From positions 1-32,467 of the forward strand of contig JAPOIY010000029.1 of NCBI GenBank assembly GCA_029978705.1: a stretch of 32,467 nt of DNA, written 5' to 3'. Under the pieces are notes generated by a model. That model had not been told where the DNA came from. It made no database searches and worked only from the letters and a program-made list of their open reading frames with translations. A program made the translations under genes and the position numbers. Below are positions 5,176 through 24,197 of this stretch, piece after piece (positions within the stretch are counted from its first letter, which is position 1; each line of letters begins with the position of its first letter). Origin of the DNA: Actinomycetota bacterium. Lineage in GTDB: Bacteria; Actinomycetota; Actinomycetes; S36-B12; GCA-2699445.

Positions 5176-5673
5176 TCAGCTCTGGTTGAAGAAGCCGTCG
5201 CGCGCCTGCTGCACCGCCGGGGCGTCCCGGACGTCCACGTTGGCCGGCGACAGCAGGAAGACCTTCTGGGTGACCCGTTCGATGCTGCCGTGCATGGCGA
5301 ACACCAGACCGGCGGCGAAGTCGACGATCCGCTTGGCGTCCGAATCGGTCATCTCCGACAGGTTCATGATCACCGGAGCGCCGGCACGGTACTCCTCACC
5401 GATGCGGCGGGCATCGTTGTAGGACTTGGGGTGGATGGTGTGGATGGCGTACGGGTCCACGGACGGATCGGCGGCTGGGCTCGGGGCCGCCTCCCGCCGG
5501 TGCAGGGTGGCCACGCCGGCGGGGGCCGCCGCAGCGGGATCCGCCGCCCGCGGCATGGTCGTCGTGGGGGTGGGGTCGTGGTACCCGTACCCGGCGCCGG
5601 AAGCGCCCTCGTAGCCGGGGTCGTCCTCGACGAGGCCGAGGTACATACCCAGTCGCTTCATCGCCGTTGCCAT
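5176..5673 (-). CDS. sepF: Cell division protein SepF
   Basis: SepF (165 aa) anchors FtsZ filaments to the membrane at the septum. The N-terminal [17 protein letters not shown] is the typical amphipathic membrane-targeting helix. Residues 20-75 are a flexible linker rich in Pro, Ala and Gly. Residues 76-160 form the SepF core: [26 protein letters not shown], the [14 protein letters not shown] stretch and [10 protein letters not shown] 5673 is preferred over the in-frame ATG at 5661 because GAGGAG lies 5-7 nt upstream. That ribosome-binding site is part of a small hairpin carrying the ACUUCCCCG loop (see the leader entry). The gene lies 90 nt after yggS and 3 nt before yggT. Confidence 0.95.
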
Positions 5674-5680
5674 ATCCGCT

Positions 5681-5700
5681 CCTCGATCGGGGAAGTGAGG
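5681..5700 (-). promoter_or_regulatory. sepF leader hairpin with ACUUCCCCG loop masking the ribosome-binding site
   Basis: In the RNA, CCUC (5700-5697) pairs with GAGG (5684-5681), and GAGG belongs to the GAGGAG ribosome-binding site of sepF. The loop begins with ACUUCCCCG (5696-5688), the same nonamer found in both tandem hairpins between mraZ and rsmH. An alternative fold pairs GGGGGUG (5713-5707) with CAC-UU-CCCC, which would release the ribosome-binding site. The 4-bp stem is weak on its own, so a bound factor may be needed. Function is inferred. Confidence 0.45.
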
Positions 5701-5713
5701 CGCTCGCACCCCC

Positions 5714-5743
5714 ACCGGCCGACCCCGCAAGGGGACTGCCGGT
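5714..5743 (-). other. Hairpin in the yggS-sepF spacer
   Basis: ACCGGC (5714-5719) and GCCGGT (5738-5743) form a perfect 6-bp outer stem. CCCC (5723-5726) and GGGG (5731-5734) form the inner stem around a 4-nt loop, with a symmetric 3-by-3 internal loop between them. There is no U-tract, so an RNA processing or stabilising element is as likely as a terminator. Confidence 0.4.
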
Positions 5744-5763
5744 CGGGAACCCGCACTCCGACG

Positions 5764-6459
5764 TTACCTGACATCCGGCCGCCTCCCGAGCACCGCGCTG
5801 CCGACACGCACGTGTGTCGCGCCGGCGGCGATGGCCTCCTCGAGGTCGCCGCTCATTCCCGCCGACAGCCACGTGGCGTCCGGGAACTCCGTGAGGACCT
5901 GCTGCCGGAGCGGGGCGAGCCGGGCGAACGCCGCGGCCGGGTCCTCCCCCAGGGGCGCGACAGCCATCAGCCCGGCCAGCCGCAGCCGCTCGCTGGCGGC
6001 CACCGCGCGGGCCACCGCCAGCACGTCGCCGGGGTCCGCCCCACCCCGACCGGGGTCGCCGTGCAGGGACACCTGGACGAGCGCGTCGAGGTAGCGGTCC
6101 TCCCGCTGCGCGGCCCGGTCCAGGGCCGCCACGAGGGACACCCGGTCGACCGAGTGCACGACGTCGGCGTAACTCACCACGGAGGCCGCCTTGTTGCGCT
6201 GCAGCTGCCCGACGAAGTGCCACACGAGGTCCAGGTCGGCCAGATCGGCGGCCTTGACCGACGCCTCCTGGTCGCGGTTCTCGCCCACGTTGCGCACCCC
6301 CAGGTCGGCGAGCAGCCGCACGTCCGACTCGGGCCACGTCTTGGTCACCACGACGGTGGTCACCTCAGCGGGGTCGCGGCCGCACCCGCGGCACGCGGCG
6401 GCGATCCGTTCCTGCACGACCGCCAGGTTGTCGGCCAGCTCGTCGCGGCGGCCCGTCAC
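5764..6459 (-). CDS. yggS: YggS/PROSC family PLP-binding protein
   Basis: This 231-residue cytoplasmic protein is the alanine racemase-fold PLP carrier that buffers pyridoxal phosphate and influences amino-acid balance. It has no known enzymatic reaction of its own. K40 in VVVTKTWP is the expected PLP lysine. Other family elements are GVRNVGENRDQEASVKA, WHFVGQLQRNK, HSVDR, LAGLMAVAP, LSAGMSGDLEEAIAAGATHVRVGSAVLG. GTG 6459 overlaps the pgeF stop by 4 nt (GTGA), so translation is likely coupled. The place between pgeF and sepF is the standard actinobacterial order. Confidence 0.95.
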   Translation of the reverse strand: MTGRRDELADNLAVVQERIAAACRGCGRDPAEVTTVVVTKTWPESDVRLLADLGVRNVGENRDQEASVKAADLADLDLVWHFVGQLQRNKAASVVSYADVVHSVDRVSLVAALDRAAQREDRYLDALVQVSLHGDPGRGGADPGDVLAVARAVAASERLRLAGLMAVAPLGEDPAAAFARLAPLRQQVLTEFPDATWLSAGMSGDLEEAIAAGATHVRVGSAVLGRRPDVR

Positions 6460-8576: not shown

Positions 8577-9452
8577 TCAGAGTTGGCGCACGGTTCCGGT
8601 CCGGTCCTGCAGCAGTCCGGCCCCCCGGTGGCGCCGTACGAGCCGGCGGCCGGTGCGGTCGGAACTGATCATCAGTGCCTTGCTGAGGGCCTCGGCCACC
8701 CACGCCGTCGGCGCGATGGCCGTGGCCGCCGCCGCACCACCGGTCACGGGCCGGCCGGTGCGCGGGTCGATGAGGTGATGGGCCGGGCCGCGGTCGGTGT
8801 GCCACACCCGCCGGGTGCGGCTGCTGGTGGCCAGGGCGCCGCCGGTGAGACGCACACTCAGCGGTGGCCCGCCGGGGACCTCGTTGTCGATCCCGATCTC
8901 CCACGGCGCGTCCCGGGTGCCCCGCACGCGCAGGTCACCGCCGACGTTGACCAGGCAGGCGGTGGCGCCTGCCCGGCACAGTTCGGCGGCCACGAGGTCG
9001 GCGGCGAATCCTTTGCCGATCCCGCCGGTGTCCAGTTCCGCGCCGGGCGCCAGCACCACCGTGCGGGAGCGGCGGTCGAGTCGCAGCACGGGATCAGGGA
9101 TGGCGGGCGTGGTCGGCCGCATCGTCTGCCGGTCCAGGTCCGCGAAGTCCCGGTCGTAGCCGGCAGCCACGACCTGCCGCACCATGAACGGGTCGAACCG
9201 GCCGCGCGTGAACCGCCGGGCCACCAGCCCGCGCACGAGCAGGTCCCACGTCTCGGGCTGCAGCCGACCGCCGCCGGCCCGGTTGACGCGCATCACCGGA
9301 CTGCTGGGGTCGAAGCGGGTCCACATGCGCTGCAGCTCCGCGATCCGGTCCACGGCGTAGCCGGTGAGCCGCCGGGGCCCCTCCACGATCACGTGGCACT
9401 CGGTCCCCATCGCGGGGAAGCGCCGTTCCCAGCGCTGCGTGACGGGGCTCAA
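8577..9452 (-). CDS. ApbE-like FAD:protein FMN transferase, no signal peptide
   Basis: A 291-residue ApbE family protein. Family enzymes move FMN from FAD onto a Thr/Ser of target proteins, using Mg2+. Visible elements: MGT at 15-17, FTRGRFDPFM (81-90), LDTGGIGKGFAADLV (140-154), NVGGD (169-173), HLIDPRTG (226-233). The C-terminal metal motif, usually ADALATAL, reads AEALSKAL (253-260), so the usual Asp is Glu and the usual Thr is Lys. I believe some actinobacterial members show similar changes, so activity is uncertain rather than lost. There is no signal peptide or lipobox, unlike the exported ApbE that flavinylates extracytoplasmic proteins. TTG 9452 overlaps the lipoprotein stop (TTGA). 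An ATG at 9410 would remove the residues before MGT. The position between ftsQ and ftsZ is unusual. Confidence 0.85.
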   Translation of the reverse strand: MSPVTQRWERRFPAMGTECHVIVEGPRRLTGYAVDRIAELQRMWTRFDPSSPVMRVNRAGGGRLQPETWDLLVRGLVARRFTRGRFDPFMVRQVVAAGYDRDFADLDRQTMRPTTPAIPDPVLRLDRRSRTVVLAPGAELDTGGIGKGFAADLVAAELCRAGATACLVNVGGDLRVRGTRDAPWEIGIDNEVPGGPPLSVRLTGGALATSSRTRRVWHTDRGPAHHLIDPRTGRPVTGGAAAATAIAPTAWVAEALSKALMISSDRTGRRLVRRHRGAGLLQDRTGTVRQL

Positions 9453-14579: not shown

Positions 14580-16004
14580 CTACGAACGGAGCCGGGCGAC
14601 CTCCCGTGCGAACGCGTCGCCACGAGCTGCGTAGTCCGTGAACATGTCCCATGACGCACACCCCGGCGCCAGCAGCACGGTGTCACCCGACTCGGCCAGG
14701 GCGGCGGCGGCAGCCACCACCTCGGCCATGGCACCAGTGTCGGTGGTCGGCACCGTGACGACGGGAACGTCGGGGGCGTGTCGCCGAAGAGCTGCGGCGA
14801 TGTCGTCCCGGTCCCGGCCCAGCAGGACCACGCCGCGCAACCGGTCCGCGCACGCGCGGACCAGGTCGTCGAAATCCTGGCCCTTGGCCAGGCCGCCGGC
14901 GATCCACACCACCGGCCGATAGGAGCGCAGCGAGGCGAGGGCGGCGTGGGCGTTGGTGGCCTTGGAGTCGTCGACGTACGCCACGTCCGCGACGGTGCCG
15001 ACGGCCGCGATCCGGTGGCCCGCCGGGGTGAACTCCCGCAGCCCCCGCGCCACCTCCTGCGGGGTCAGCCCGTAGGCGCGGGCGAGAGCCGCCGCGGCCA
15101 GGGCATTGGCGACGTTGTGCGCGCCGGGCGGCCGCACGTCGGCCACGCGGGCCAGCTCGACCGCGGTGGTGGCCCGGTCGGGGAGGAAGGCCCGGTCGAC
15201 CAGGTACTCGTCGACGACCCCCACCTCGCTGGGCGCGGGGGCGCCCAGCGTGAACCCGACGGCGCGGCAGCCCGCCACGACCTCGGCGTCGGCCACCATG
15301 GCCACAGTGGCGGGCTCCGCGCGGTTGTACACCGCCGCCACCTGGCAGCGTTCGTAGATCCGGCCCTTCACCGCGGCGTAGTCGGCGAAGGAACCGAAGT
15401 GGTCCAGGTGGTCCGGGGCGACGTTGAGGCATACCGCGGCCAGGGGGCTGACGGTGTGCCAGAACGGCAGCTGCGGCGCCCCGACCTCGACGGCGATCAC
15501 GTCCAGATCGTCGGCCATGACGGCGGCCACGAGCGAGAACCCGATGTTGCCGGCGGCCAGCGTGCGGCGCCCCGCGGCCCGCAGCATGGCCTCGAGCATG
15601 AGCGTGGTGGTGGTCTTGCCGTTGGTGCCGGTGACGACCAACCATGGCGCGGCGTCCGGCGCCCGCAGCCGCCACGCCAGTTCCAGCTCCCCCCACACGG
15701 GGACCCCGGCGGCTGTCGCGGCGGCGATGATCGGGGCGTTCGGCGGGAACCCCGGGGAGACGACGAGCAGCGCCAGCCCCTCGGGGAGGGTGTCGCCGTC
15801 GCCGAGCCGCACGGTCACGGCGTCGGCCCGCAGCTGCTCCGCCCACCGCTGGTGGTCCGGGGAGGTGCCCGCGTCGACGGCGACGACCCGGGCGCCCAGC
15901 CCGGCCAGCACGCGGGCACAGGCCGCCCCGGCCACCCGGATGCCCGCCACGCCGACCGTCACCCCGCTCCAGTCGCTGTCGCGCCCGAGGTCGGCCAGGT
16001 TCAC
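14580..16004 (-). CDS. murD: UDP-N-acetylmuramoyl-L-alanine--D-glutamate ligase
   Basis: MurD (474 aa, cytoplasm) adds D-Glu to UDP-MurNAc-L-Ala. The N-terminal Rossmann-like domain contains VTVGVAGIRVAGAACARVLAG and the VVSPGFPPNAP element. The P-loop is GTNGKTTTT (126-134), followed by NIGFSLV and, in the central domain, NVAPDHLDHFGS. DDSKATN and the C-terminal SGDTVLLAPGCASWDMFTDYAARGDAF are typical of MurD. GTG 16004 overlaps the mraY stop by 4 nt (GTGA), which settles the start against the long open frame upstream. Confidence 0.96.
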   Translation of the reverse strand: MNLADLGRDSDWSGVTVGVAGIRVAGAACARVLAGLGARVVAVDAGTSPDHQRWAEQLRADAVTVRLGDGDTLPEGLALLVVSPGFPPNAPIIAAATAAGVPVWGELELAWRLRAPDAAPWLVVTGTNGKTTTTLMLEAMLRAAGRRTLAAGNIGFSLVAAVMADDLDVIAVEVGAPQLPFWHTVSPLAAVCLNVAPDHLDHFGSFADYAAVKGRIYERCQVAAVYNRAEPATVAMVADAEVVAGCRAVGFTLGAPAPSEVGVVDEYLVDRAFLPDRATTAVELARVADVRPPGAHNVANALAAAALARAYGLTPQEVARGLREFTPAGHRIAAVGTVADVAYVDDSKATNAHAALASLRSYRPVVWIAGGLAKGQDFDDLVRACADRLRGVVLLGRDRDDIAAALRRHAPDVPVVTVPTTDTGAMAEVVAAAAALAESGDTVLLAPGCASWDMFTDYAARGDAFAREVARLRS

Positions 16005-17080
16005 TGGCCCGCCCACGGCACCACCCACTCGGCGTAGAAGATCGTCATGGCGAGAGCCACGCACAGCGCCTGGATGATCCAGAACCGTACGACGATCAGG
16101 ATCTCCGGCCAGCCCTTCAACTCGAAGTGGTGGTGCAGCGGCGCCATCCGGAACACCCGCTTGCCGGTGAGTTTGAAGGACCCCACCTGCAGGATCACGG
16201 ACACCGTGACGATGAAGAAGAGCCCGGCCATGAGGATCAGCAGCAGCTCGGTGCGCGTCATGATGGCCAGCCCCGCGATCGCGCCGCCGAGGGCCAGCGA
16301 CCCGGTGTCGCCCATGAAGATGCGGGCCGGGTGGGTGTTCCACCACAGGAACCCGAAACACGCGCCCGTGCAGGCGGCTGCGAAGACGGTGAGGTCGAGC
16401 GGGTCACGCACCTGATAGCAGTTCAGGGAGGTGCTGGCGCCGCAGGTCTCGTTGAACTGCCACAGGGCCAGGAGGGTGTAACCGCCGAAGGTGAGCAGCG
16501 CGGCGCCGGTCGCGAGCCCGTCGAGGCCGTCGGTCAGGTTGACCCCGTTGGTGGTGGCGGTGATGAGGAACCAGATCCACAACACGAACAGGACCGTCGG
16601 CAGGACCAGCGGCGTGTCCTTGACGAAGGAGACGGCCTGCGAGGCGGGGGTGTAGCCCTGCGGGTCGGGGAAGTTGAGGGCCAGCACCGCGAACGTCAGC
16701 GCGACGAACGCCTGCCCGATGAGTTTGGTGCGGGCCCGGATGCCGGTGGAGCGCTGCCGGAAGATCTTCAGGTAGTCGTCGGCGAACCCGACGGCGCCCA
16801 GCCCCAGCAGCAGCCACAGCGCCAGCAGCCCCGATACCGACGGCACCGTCCAGAACAGCAGGTGCGTGACCAGGTAGGCGATGACGACGGCCGCGATGAT
16901 GGCGGCCCCGCCCATGGACGGCGTGCCCACCTTCCCGGTGTGCTCGGGATACTGCACGTCGTCGGTGGACATGCGGATCGCCTGGCTGTAGCCGTGGCGC
17001 TGGAGCAGGCGGATGAGGGTGGGGGTGCCCAGCAGGGACACGATGCCGGCGATGCCGCCGGCGAGGATGATGAGGATCAC
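16001..17080 (-). CDS. mraY: Phospho-MurNAc-pentapeptide transferase MraY
   Basis: MraY (359 aa, about ten membrane helices) joins phospho-MurNAc-pentapeptide to undecaprenyl phosphate to form lipid I. Catalytic motifs are DDYLKIFRQRSTGI with the paired Asp, NLTDGLDGLATG, the FMGDTGSLALGG segment and the HHHFELKGWPE loop near the end. GTG 17080 (VILIILAGGIAG) overlaps the murF stop (GTGA). The codons for LNFPDP contain an exact copy of the ACTTCCCCG nonamer (16674-16666), possibly by chance. Confidence 0.97.
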   Translation of the reverse strand: MILIILAGGIAGIVSLLGTPTLIRLLQRHGYSQAIRMSTDDVQYPEHTGKVGTPSMGGAAIIAAVVIAYLVTHLLFWTVPSVSGLLALWLLLGLGAVGFADDYLKIFRQRSTGIRARTKLIGQAFVALTFAVLALNFPDPQGYTPASQAVSFVKDTPLVLPTVLFVLWIWFLITATTNGVNLTDGLDGLATGAALLTFGGYTLLALWQFNETCGASTSLNCYQVRDPLDLTVFAAACTGACFGFLWWNTHPARIFMGDTGSLALGGAIAGLAIMTRTELLLILMAGLFFIVTVSVILQVGSFKLTGKRVFRMAPLHHHFELKGWPEILIVVRFWIIQALCVALAMTIFYAEWVVPWAGQ

Positions 17081-18456
17081 GGAGCCGCCCCGAGGGCCGT
17101 GGCGACCTCTTCGAGAGCGACCCCGCGGGACGCCTTCACCAGCACGATGTCGCCGGGCCGCAGCTCGGCGTGCAGGAACTCGACGGCCGCCGCGGCATCC
17201 GGAACAGCGACGGACTCGCCGTTCCAGGATCCTTCGTGGGCGGCGCCGAGGTGGATCGCACGGGCCCCTTCCCCGACGGCGACGACCTGTCCGATGTTGA
17301 GCCGCACCGCGAGGCGTCCGATCTCGTCGTGCGCGACGGTTGCGCCGGGGCCCAGTTCCTTCATCTCGCCGAGGACGGCGAAGGTACGGCCGCCGCTGCG
17401 GCGCCCCATCTCGGCCAGCGCCTTCATCGCGGCGGCCATGGAGTCGGGGTTGGCGTTGTAGGCGTCGTTGACGACGACGACCCCGGAGTCCGTGGTCGTG
17501 ACCTCCATCCGCCACCGGCTGATGGCCCGGGTCTGCTGCAGGGCGTCGGCCGCGTCGGCCAGGTCGATCCCGGCGGTGACGCCGGCGAGTGCGGCGGCGG
17601 CGGCGTTCCAGGCGTTGTGCTCCCCGCTCAGGGCCAGCGCGACGGGCACTTCGCTGCCCTCGTGGACCAGCACGAAACGCGGCCGGGCCCACTCGTCGAC
17701 GGTGAGGTCGGCGATCCTCATGTCGGCCCCGGCGGCGACGCCGAAGGTGCGCACGGCGCCGGCGGCCGTGGCTCCCATCGCCGCCACCAGGGGGTCGTCG
17801 GCGTTGAGCACGGCGACCCCGGCGGGCGCGAGCGCCGTCACGAGCTCACCCTTGGCGGCGGCGATGACGTCGCGCGACCCGAATTCGCCCAGGTGGGCGG
17901 TGCCGACGTTGAGCACCACCGAGATGTCCGGGGGGGTGAGCGAGCACAGGTAGGCGATGTGGCCGAGCCCGCGAGCCCCCATCTCCGCGACCAGCGTGCG
18001 GGTGTCGGGGCCGCAGTCGAGCGCCGTGAGAGGGAGGCCCACCTCGGTGTTCATGGAGCCGGCCGGGGCGACGACGGGGCCGCGGCGGGCCATCACCTGG
18101 GCCAGGAGGTCCTTGGTGGACGTCTTGCCCGACGACCCGGTCACGGCGACGACCGTGAGGTCCGGGAGCGCGGCGACGACGCTGCGCGCCAGCTCGCCGA
18201 GGGCGGCGACCGGGTCCGGCACCACCACGGTGGGCAGGTCGGCGGGCCGCGTGCTGAGGGCGGCGACAGCGCCGGCGGCGGCGGCCGCCGGGATGAAGTC
18301 GTGGCCATCGACCCGGTCACCGGGGATCGCGACGAAGAGGTCGCCGGGGGCCACGGCGCGCGAGTCGGCCACGACGTGCCGCACGACGGGGTCGCCCGGG
18401 CCACTGGTGGGGGCGGAGAGGGCGGCGGCGACGGCGGACAGCGGCAGGGGGATCAC
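17077..18456 (-). CDS. murF: UDP-MurNAc-tripeptide--D-alanyl-D-alanine ligase
   Basis: MurF (459 aa) adds D-Ala-D-Ala and completes the cytoplasmic pentapeptide precursor. VVADSRAVAPGDLFVAIPG (28-46) is the uridine-binding N-terminal domain, TGSSGKTSTKD (106-116) the P-loop, and EMGARGLGHIAYL, NVGTAHLGEFGS and NDAYNANPDSM further Mur ligase motifs. ATG 18456 overlaps the murE stop by 4 nt (ATGA), and its own stop overlaps mraY. A strong anti-parallel open frame exists here but lacks any family signature. Confidence 0.97.
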   Translation of the reverse strand: MIPLPLSAVAAALSAPTSGPGDPVVRHVVADSRAVAPGDLFVAIPGDRVDGHDFIPAAAAAGAVAALSTRPADLPTVVVPDPVAALGELARSVVAALPDLTVVAVTGSSGKTSTKDLLAQVMARRGPVVAPAGSMNTEVGLPLTALDCGPDTRTLVAEMGARGLGHIAYLCSLTPPDISVVLNVGTAHLGEFGSRDVIAAAKGELVTALAPAGVAVLNADDPLVAAMGATAAGAVRTFGVAAGADMRIADLTVDEWARPRFVLVHEGSEVPVALALSGEHNAWNAAAAALAGVTAGIDLADAADALQQTRAISRWRMEVTTTDSGVVVVNDAYNANPDSMAAAMKALAEMGRRSGGRTFAVLGEMKELGPGATVAHDEIGRLAVRLNIGQVVAVGEGARAIHLGAAHEGSWNGESVAVPDAAAAVEFLHAELRPGDIVLVKASRGVALEEVATALGAAP

Positions 18457-19951: not shown

Positions 19952-21769
19952 TCAGGACAGGCCGCCCCAGTCGAGCGGGAAGTTCGCCCGCTTGCCGCCG
20001 GTGGGGGGCACGTTGTGGTTGGCGAGCGCCGCGGTCATGAGTTTCTGCACGACCGGGGCGGCGACCTCGCCGCCGTAGTAGCTGCCCTGGGGGTTGTCGA
20101 ACCAGGCGCCGACCACCAGTTGCGGGTCGTCGGCGGGAGCCATGCCGACGAAGCTGCCCGTGTACCCGCTGTAGCAGCCACATTTCTCGTCGTACCGCTG
20201 AGCCGTGCCGGTCTTGCCGCCCATGAGGTAGCCCGGGACCTCGGCCACCTTGGCGGTGCCGCCCTCCCCCACGACCATCTGCATCATGCTCTGCATGGTC
20301 TGCGCGGTGTCGGGGGTCAGCACCGGCTCCCCTTCGACGGGGGCCGTCTGCTCCACGGTGCCGTCGGGGGCGGTGTAACTGTCGATGAGTCGCGGGGTCA
20401 CGGGAACGCCGTCGTTGCCGATCGTGGCGGCGGCGTTGGCGATCTGCAGCGCGGTCAGGGACATGCCCTGCCCGAAGGCGAGGGTGGGGAACGTGGTGTC
20501 CGACCAGTCCGCCGGCTCGGGGACGTAACCCGTCTGCTCGCCGGGGAAGTCGAGCCCGCTGGGCTCCCCGACGCCGAACTTCTTGAGGTACTCGTACAGT
20601 TTCTTGCCGCCGATCTTCTCCGACGCCAGCACCGTGCCGATGTTGCTGGACTCGGCGAGGATGCCCGCGAGGGTCAACTGCAGGCCACCGTGCTCATGGG
20701 AGTCCTTGAACCACTGGCCCCCGCGGTACAGCGCCCCCGGTACGGAGAAGTGGCTGCGCGGCTTGGCTTTGCCTTCGTTCAGGACAGCGGACAGCGTGAG
20801 CAGTTTGGCCGTGGACCCCGGCTCCATCGCCCACGTGGCGGGTTTGTTGGCCCAGTCCTCGGGCTTGACGGTGTCCGGGTTGAGGGGGTCGAAGGCCGGG
20901 GCCGTGGCCATCGCCAGGATGCGGCCGGTGCCGACCTCGAGGATGACCGCGGTCCCGAAGTCCGACCCCGAGGCCTTCACCTGCTTGGCCAGCGCCTCCT
21001 GGGCCATCCACTGCAGGTCCGAGTCGAGGGTGAGCCGCACGTCGCTGCCCGCCACCGGGTCCACCTGATCCACGTCCGAGGTCGGGATCTCGGTGCCGCC
21101 GGCGGCCTGCTCGAACGTGACGCTGCCCGGTGTGCCGGCCAGGCGGTCGTCCAGCGCCGCCTCCAGACCGACGGCGCCGTGGCCTTCGGAGTTGGTGAAC
21201 CCGATCACCGTCGAGGCCAGCTGGCCGTTTGGGTAGTCGCGAATGGTGCGCCGCTCGCTGAAGATCGCCTGCAGGACCTCGGGGTCGTTGGCGGGGTCGC
21301 TGCGCCACGTCTGGATGGTGCGCCACACCTGCGGGTCGGTGGCTTTCTTGAGGTAGGTGAACCTGCTCTCCCCGGTGAGCAGCGGCTGCAGTTCGGCCGG
21401 GTCCATGCCGAGGATGGGTCCGAGCACGGCTGCGGTCTGGGCGGGGTCGACGACAAGGGTCTGGTCGGCGGTGATGTCGCGCACCTCGATGGACGTGGCC
21501 AGGGGCCGTCCGGCGATGTCGCTGATCTCGCCCCGGGTCGCCGGGATGTCCTGCGTGAGGATGCGCTGGTTGAGTGCGGCCTCCGCCAGTTCCGGCCCGC
21601 GCAGCGCCTGCAGTTCCACCAGGCGGGCCCCGAACAGGGTGAGGATGAACGCGAAGGCGATGATCAGCGCCCGCAGTCGGCCCCGCGAGTCGGACAGGGC
21701 GAACGGTTTGTGCGGGGGCGGCGGTGAGCCGGCGGGGCGCCGGGTGCGCTCGGGGGCGGGGGCGCTCAT
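19952..21769 (-). CDS. ftsI: FtsI/PBP3, septal peptidoglycan transpeptidase
   Basis: A 605-residue class B penicillin-binding protein that cross-links septal peptidoglycan with FtsW. A Pro/Arg-rich cytoplasmic stretch (1-31) precedes one membrane helix (33-50), then the PBP dimerisation domain (RGEISDIAGRPLATSI). The transpeptidase domain has the nucleophile motif STAK (Ser319-Lys322), SSN (374-376) and KTG (519-521). The catalytic residues are therefore complete. No PASTA domain is present. ATG 21769 overlaps the ftsL-like stop (ATGA). LDFPGE codons contain a copy of ACTTCCCCG (20550-20542). Confidence 0.97.
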   Translation of the reverse strand: MSAPAPERTRRPAGSPPPPHKPFALSDSRGRLRALIIAFAFILTLFGARLVELQALRGPELAEAALNQRILTQDIPATRGEISDIAGRPLATSIEVRDITADQTLVVDPAQTAAVLGPILGMDPAELQPLLTGESRFTYLKKATDPQVWRTIQTWRSDPANDPEVLQAIFSERRTIRDYPNGQLASTVIGFTNSEGHGAVGLEAALDDRLAGTPGSVTFEQAAGGTEIPTSDVDQVDPVAGSDVRLTLDSDLQWMAQEALAKQVKASGSDFGTAVILEVGTGRILAMATAPAFDPLNPDTVKPEDWANKPATWAMEPGSTAKLLTLSAVLNEGKAKPRSHFSVPGALYRGGQWFKDSHEHGGLQLTLAGILAESSNIGTVLASEKIGGKKLYEYLKKFGVGEPSGLDFPGEQTGYVPEPADWSDTTFPTLAFGQGMSLTALQIANAAATIGNDGVPVTPRLIDSYTAPDGTVEQTAPVEGEPVLTPDTAQTMQSMMQMVVGEGGTAKVAEVPGYLMGGKTGTAQRYDEKCGCYSGYTGSFVGMAPADDPQLVVGAWFDNPQGSYYGGEVAAPVVQKLMTAALANHNVPPTGGKRANFPLDWGGLS

Positions 21770-23333: not shown

Positions 23334-23380
23334 CGTGCCTCCCGGGAGTCCGGGCTGACCGTGCCATCAGGTCCCCTCCC

Positions 23381-23464
23381 GCATCCTCCGGCGCCGGGGA
23401 AGTGCGCCGGAAGGTGCCGGGGATCAGGCACTCCGGCCGTCGGGGAAGTACGGCCGGAAGGTGC
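23381..23464 (-). ncRNA. Tandem mraW-type RNA hairpins between mraZ and rsmH
   Basis: Hairpin 1: TCCGGCGC (23387-23394) with GCGCCGGA (23404-23411), loop 23395-23403. Hairpin 2: TCCGGCCGT (23432-23440) with ACGGCCGGA (23450-23458), loop 23441-23449. Both loops read ACUUCCCCG in the RNA while the stems differ in sequence and length yet stay paired, which is compensatory change within one molecule. Outer GCA/TGC pairs extend both. This fits my recollection of the mraW motif, a structured element found upstream of mraW/rsmH in actinobacteria with a conserved CUUCCCC loop. Its ligand is not known to me. Confidence 0.75.
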
Positions 23465-23491
23465 GGGCGGAGGCCTCACCACACGGTCAGC

Positions 23492-23923
23492 TCAGAACAG
23501 TCCCGGGACCACCTCCTCGCCGAGTTCGGAGAAGGTCTGCTCCTGGGCGGCCAGGTAGTCCTGCCAGGCGGGCTCGTCCCAGATCTCGGCGGTGGCCCCG
23601 TTGCCCGCGATGACCACGTCGCGGCCCAGGCCGGCGTAGTCGCGCAGCGGCTGGGGCAGGCCGACCCGTCCCTGTTTGTCCGGTACCTGGTCGAAGGCGC
23701 CGGAGAACAGCACCCGCAGATACGACCGCACGGCGGCGTTGGAGCGGGAGGCCTCGTTGAGCCGCGCTGCGTACGTCTCGAACTCCGCGGCGGGCCACAG
23801 GACGACACACCGGTCCTGCCCCTTGGTCAGGACGATGCCGTCGGCGAGGTCCTCGCGGAATTTGGCGGGAAGCACGAGGCGGCCCTTGTCGTCGAGGCGG
23901 GGGGTATGCGTGCCGAGCAGCAT
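23492..23923 (-). CDS. mraZ: Transcriptional regulator MraZ
   Basis: MraZ (143 aa) is a ring-forming DNA-binding protein with two AbrB-like halves, each carrying a DxxGR element: DDKGRLVLPAKFR (11-23) and DKQGRVGLPQPLRD (second half). It binds TGGG/TGGAG-type direct repeats in front of its own operon and represses or modulates it. ATG 23923 gives MLLGTHTPRL, the conserved N-terminus and the usual family length. GTG 23926 directly before it is also possible. The promoter upstream carries four matching repeats. The gene is followed by 158 nt that hold the mraW-type hairpins. Confidence 0.96.
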   Translation of the reverse strand: MLLGTHTPRLDDKGRLVLPAKFREDLADGIVLTKGQDRCVVLWPAAEFETYAARLNEASRSNAAVRSYLRVLFSGAFDQVPDKQGRVGLPQPLRDYAGLGRDVVIAGNGATAEIWDEPAWQDYLAAQEQTFSELGEEVVPGLF

Positions 23924-23981: not shown

Positions 23982-24016
23982 CTCCATATTGCTCCACCGT
24001 ACTCCACTTCGCCCCA
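23982..24016 (-). promoter_or_regulatory. MraZ box: four TGGRG repeats, 10-bp period
   Basis: On the minus strand TGGGG (24016-24012), TGGAG (24006-24002), TGGAG (23996-23992) and TGGAG (23986-23982) are spaced exactly 10 bp, one helical turn, so all face one side of the DNA. This is the expected MraZ recognition pattern. The repeats cover the spacer and -10 of the promoter, which fits autorepression. Confidence 0.8.
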
Positions 24017-24024
24017 CTCGCCAA
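23996..24024 (-). promoter_or_regulatory. Promoter of the mraZ operon
   Basis: TTGGCG (24024-24019), 17-nt spacer, TACGGT (24001-23996). Start of transcription is predicted near 23989, giving a leader of about 65 nt. It overlaps the MraZ box. The stretch from 24025 to 24221 shows no gene and nothing else clear except the palindrome at 24198-24212. Confidence 0.6.
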
Positions 24025-24197
24025 CCGATCTGCCCCAATTCGGCTCTGGGGATGGCGCAGGGACGTCGGCCGCGATCCGGGCGCGTGGTGGGATTCGCGC
24101 GCGACGGGCGACAAGAGGGCATCGACGGCGGCCGCGGACGGGGCGCCGCGTCGTGGAGCCCCGCCGGGCGCGGCGCCCCGGCGGCAGGGGGTTGTCG

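Follow-up and report, generated by a model that had tools for sequence, protein, structure and literature searches.

A family-specific C-rich leader element at the ribosome-binding site of sepF and its likeness to the loops of mraW RNA in uncultured Nanopelagicales

Between yggS and sepF, on the minus strand of the 32,467-nucleotide stretch analyzed here (the window), the nonamer ACTTCCCCG precedes the ribosome-binding site (RBS) of sepF and raises the question of whether letters known from the mraW RNA mark an element that governs a second division gene. A sequence-only reading of the window had placed this nonamer, a CCTC arm, a GAGG arm and a GGGGGTG stretch before sepF, and all of them were found there, together with the following features.

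5176..5673 (−), sepF coding sequence, 165 aa (Pfam SepF PF04472, 2.1e-27)
5673-5671 (−), sepF ATG, with GAGGAGCGGAT directly 5' of the start codon
5679..5684 (−), sepF ribosome-binding site GAGGAG, in which GAGG (5684-5681) is the proposed 3' arm
5678..5703 (−), 26-nt conserved element of the sepF leader, GCGCCTCACTTCCCCGATCGAGGAGC, with the family consensus GCRCYTC-MCTTCCCC-N4-GAGGAGC
5688..5696 (−), nonamer with the same letters as both mraW hairpin loops
5697..5700 (−), CCTC, which as 5' arm is proposed to pair with the RBS (two near-identical relatives have CTTC, pairing retained)
5713-5707 (−), GGGGGTG, the upstream competitor proposed by the sequence-only reading, present in the window sequence
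5709..5748 (−), predicted 5' leader hairpin (z −2.2 in the window)
5766-5764 (−), yggS stop codon; the leader element sits between yggS and sepF
5761..5766 (−), putative sepF −10 hexamer TAACGT, proposed on its position and recurrence and sharing letters with the yggS stop codon

At the yggS stop, TCAGGTAACGTC (5760-5771, minus strand) is largely kept over the family, and in many sepF leaders across the class the end of yggS carries GGTA[AG]CGT or a similar TAnnnT string (GGTAACGT/GGTAGCGT); no match to the sigma-70 consensus was found at the putative sepF promoter. The −10 of sepF probably overlaps the yggS stop, which would give a leader of about 80 nt. A match to the DnaX frameshift element at 5713-5743 scored 19.4 bits, short of the cut-off of 35, and was discarded. 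Elsewhere in the division cluster, an ApbE-family gene (8577-9452, minus strand; Pfam 4.1e-49) lies directly upstream of ftsZ; it was also matched in genome G005 (L116) and not in the other clusters searched.

Conservation of the leader block

Recurrence of the nonamer alone is weak evidence, because two of its five copies in the window (0.26 expected), at 16666-16674 and 20542-20550, are in-frame codons (xAC TTC CCC G, translated ..NFP.. and ..DFP..) within the ORFs 16001-17692 and 19952-21769, and because the genome holds 73 copies in all. The sepF leaders were therefore compared across eight genomes from five genera of one family of uncultured Nanopelagicales (Actinomycetes), all of them MAGs of uncultured actinomycetes and one carrying the label Candidatus Nanopelagicales. 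This comparison revealed GCRCYTC-MCTTCCCC-N4-GAGGAGC directly before the sepF start in seven of the eight genomes (four of the five genera), with a block of 15 positions that is 13-15/15 identical across the family, while the preceding 56 nt of leader share only 14-43% identity and are essentially unrelated, one near-identical pair excepted. Persistence of the nonamer before sepF in close relatives, on which the sequence-only reading had staked its case, was thus observed, with constant spacing to the RBS. The eighth genome, G005, keeps CCUC..GAGGAGC and lacks the C-rich loop at sepF; its mraW loops are kept.

Either 4 or 6 nt separate the element from the ATG, and its variable positions lack 3-periodicity, so the leader block is not coding; a SepF N-terminal extension as the reason for conservation was likewise rejected, since the 2-nt spacing change breaks the frame in L003, L007 and L008. 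Scanning 166 genomes of the order with up to three mismatches recovered the seven family leaders at 0-1 mismatch and no match at two mismatches or fewer in the 158 other genomes, where only three-mismatch matches appeared, about as often as with the reversed control. A broader scan of 84,980 species returned four family members and scattered matches in unrelated groups, of which the only one inspected (L065) does not resemble a sepF leader, and a viral scan gave two matches. Inside the family, an RBS-linked CUUCCCC recurs over at least three genera only at sepF. In the SepF tree, the family is monophyletic with f4 as its sister, and the f4 sepF leader has CCCC-N4-GAGGAGC and is missing the CUU.

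This family-wide conservation is decisive support that the sepF leader observation is real, and the block is a genuine, family-specific and previously undescribed leader element. The sequence-only reading knew of no account of such an element at sepF, and none was found in the literature searched either, which included few subscription journals.

Structure of the leader and comparison with mraW RNA

The sequence-only reading had also folded the block into a hairpin that masks the RBS, and only part of that proposal stood. In all eight family genomes CYUC can pair with GAGG and, beyond an R/A mismatch, GC with GC, giving a stem of 4+2 pairs and a 12-nt loop. The stem itself gained no support from covariation, as no pair changed on both sides among the eight genomes: five of the six pairs are invariant, and in the remaining one a single strand changes, C becoming U opposite G, with the pair kept. 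Nor does minimum-energy folding set the element apart from shuffled sequence (z −0.1 to +1.3), and the hairpin is the optimal fold for only a minority of leaders; the predicted accessibility of the RBS is 0.2-0.6. Conservation at the sepF RBS is thus one of primary sequence. In the way it might work, the element resembles RBS-sequestering hairpins, among them the msiK motif (RF01747), with a pairing arm over the RBS and a possible leader-binding factor; unlike them, its stem is short, energetically unfavoured and without covariation support. Farther 5', seven of the eight family leaders have a predicted hairpin more stable than its shuffled counterparts (z −1.8 to −3.5; L003 is the exception, at +0.7), its position being shared and its sequence unrelated between genera, with most other leaders near zero z.

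The mraW RNA motif (RF01746) is listed in Weinberg et al. 2010 (PMC2864571), and no ligand for it was found in the literature covered, in which subscription journals were few. In the window it comprises the following features.

23349..23492 (−), mraW RNA (RF01746) between mraZ and rsmH (Rfam 32.3 bits, E 4.7e-5, below the gathering score of 50)
23430..23460 (−), mraW hairpin 1, loop ACUUCCCCG (38.2 bits, hairpin model built here)
23384..23414 (−), mraW hairpin 2, loop ACUUCCCCG (42.8 bits, hairpin model built here)

Both hairpins have 9-nt loops to which the sepF nonamer is identical, as had been claimed from the window alone. In 18 mraW hairpins from the order, CUUCCC is invariant, the fourth C nearly so and the G invariant, and compensatory changes occur at five of the eight stem pairs; because these stems covary, the CUUCCC loop acts as an RNA feature. 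CUUCCC[C/U] loops are kept in every family genome whose mraW region was read, and of 14 genomes searched with our hairpin model, 13 yielded the mraW hairpins. The same model gave no match on the family sepF leaders, so the element there is no mraW RNA and shares only the loop letters; Rfam likewise returned no mraW match between 5000 and 6500 at E ≤ 1. The letters common to both are MCUUCCCC, present in seven of the eight family sepF leaders. A random 15-nt block of the same composition would contain CUUCCCC with an estimated probability of about 1e-3, for a comparison that was made after the match had been seen.

The two elements are thus alike in their loop core CUUCCCC, which extends to 8-9 letters in the window, their lineage, their division and peptidoglycan-operon theme and their candidate role as cis-regulatory leaders. 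They differ in that the mraW hairpins have covarying 8-bp stems and loops of 8-10 nt, whereas the sepF stem does not covary and closes a 12-nt loop; the mraW outer helix AGGUCUC/GGGACCU is missing from the sepF element; and the mraW RNA lies before rsmH, the sepF element on the RBS of sepF.

Several observations concern the mraW region itself. In most family genomes its RNA carries two CUUCCC[C/U] hairpins inside a long outer stem (AGGYCUC...GGGACCU), most other families have a single hairpin, and f3 also has two CUUCCCC sites. Before mraZ, four TGGRG boxes spaced about 10 nt apart (23985-24025, minus strand) look like MraZ operator repeats. A possible uORF before rsmH (ATG in GGGACCUGAUG) was rejected on its unconserved start codon, and a search of the 14 genomes for extra mraW-type hairpins gave as its best match G005:C109 (E 0.008), which lies in the coding frame LAHFPG.

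Related letters occur in other sepF leaders, where UUCCCC was counted within 100 nt of sepF, genomes of one family not being independent samples. It was observed in six of seven f3 leaders (L235, L236, L237, L238, L240 and L110), in the loop of a short hairpin about 25-50 nt before the start (e.g. CCGGCGGCG-GAUUCCCCA-CGCGGUCGG), and in 5/19 f6 leaders, including ACUUCCCCA in G165 and ACUUUCCCCG in G012 and G160; f5 and f7 together gave 0/28, and the other families of the class 2/56. Most f3 and f6 sites lack the C or the G that invariantly flanks UUCCCC in mraW; these sites could either be related to the element or have arisen separately. Many f6 sepF leaders (L217, L218, L220-L223, L225) also show a GGGUAAGU...ACUUACCC hairpin just before AAGGAGC. 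Besides sepF and mraW, two further RBS-linked CUUCCCC sites recur in the family. The L134/L150 pair was set aside as non-hairpin and confined to the genus of the window. At nrdJ, small hairpins closing on UUCCCC were found in the leaders L153, L151 and L163 (G001, G004 and G010; three genera), namely UGAAC-UUCCCC-GUUCA, CAGUC-UUCCCCCC-GACUG and CGUC-UUCCCC-GACG; these sites stand as a weak lead, since G002, G005, G006 and G007 either lack the sequence or carry it in altered form, and an nrdJ N-terminus query found no counterpart in the window genome.

Possible control of sepF translation and competing explanations

Our preferred reading, to which we assign a probability of about 0.45, is that the block belongs to a cis-acting RNA element controlling sepF translation through a trans factor at CUUCCCC, perhaps one shared with mraW RNA. 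Its observed part is that the C-rich CYUC-MCUUCCCC adjoins the Shine-Dalgarno sequence GAGGAGC and is near invariant while the rest of the leader drifts. Beyond this, a trans factor (an RNA-binding protein, or possibly the ribosome or an RNA partner) would bind the single-stranded CUUCCCC and block or free the RBS; as CYUC pairs weakly with GAGG, factor binding and local pairing may compete. A bound factor is favoured because ACUUCCCC is invariant outside the pairing arms. From these features we infer that the element probably controls sepF translation. Against the proposal stand the want of a clear hairpin at sepF, the G005 leader without a C-rich loop and the choice of the mraW link after the fact.

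Local tuning without any trans factor is quite possible, if short of an even chance: CYUC and CUUCC would act as an anti-Shine-Dalgarno-like strand whose transient pairing with GAGGAG holds sepF translation at a fixed rate, the likeness to mraW being coincidence. The universal retention of the CYUC/GAGG letters, which extends to G005 despite its missing loop, the pair-preserving nature of the sole stem change and the intermediate RBS accessibility all fit this explanation; it leaves unexplained why ACUUCCCC, which is loop and not stem, is as invariant as the arms, and folding energy does not favour the hairpin. A DNA element, acting as an operator or as part of a promoter and recognised by a transcription factor, would account for conserved sequence without structural covariation, but we consider it unlikely, as the block adjoins the Shine-Dalgarno sequence with constant spacing, a good way downstream of the yggS stop where the putative −10 lies, and the letters that it shares with mraW sit there in RNA hairpin loops with covarying stems. 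Very unlikely is a switch that would free the RBS by pairing the C-rich loop to a G-rich stretch farther upstream (GGGGGUG): the window genome and L003 do fold CUUCCCC onto an upstream GGGGG/GGGGAG, but a G-run is present only in the genus of the window and, in another form and sequence context, in L003, so that with no partner in L004, L005 and L007, three of the six distinct leaders, this pairing cannot be a conserved function, and the competitor that the sequence-only reading had envisaged is not conserved. Chance recurrence of a common string, which the genomic copy number and the codon-borne copies might suggest, is barely credible, being refuted as regards conservation by a block kept at the same place in four genera amid randomised flanking leader, and possible only for the link to mraW.

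Returning to a factor bound at CUUCCCC, the most speculative step is that the same factor would read the CUUCCCC loops of the mraW RNA before rsmH. Such sharing is plausible from the identity of the C-rich sequence with the mraW loop, 7-8 letters in common being what points to it, and it would link SepF, and with it FtsZ anchoring, to the rsmH-mur operon; the shared factor and the coupling of division to wall synthesis are put forward as conjecture. In its widest and tentative form, which we hold to be somewhat doubtful, one RNA-binding factor would read CUUCCCC both in the mraW RNA of the rsmH-mur-fts operon and in the sepF leader, constituting a post-transcriptional regulon of Nanopelagicales that sets FtsZ anchoring together with peptidoglycan precursor synthesis, with the UUCCCC variants of f3 and f6 as possible further members. 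The sepF leader offers a second, independent site with mraW-loop letters, on the RBS of another division gene, and hence a small test RNA for finding the mraW ligand. If the proposal is true, anchoring of the Z-ring would be tied to the synthesis of wall precursors at the level of translation.
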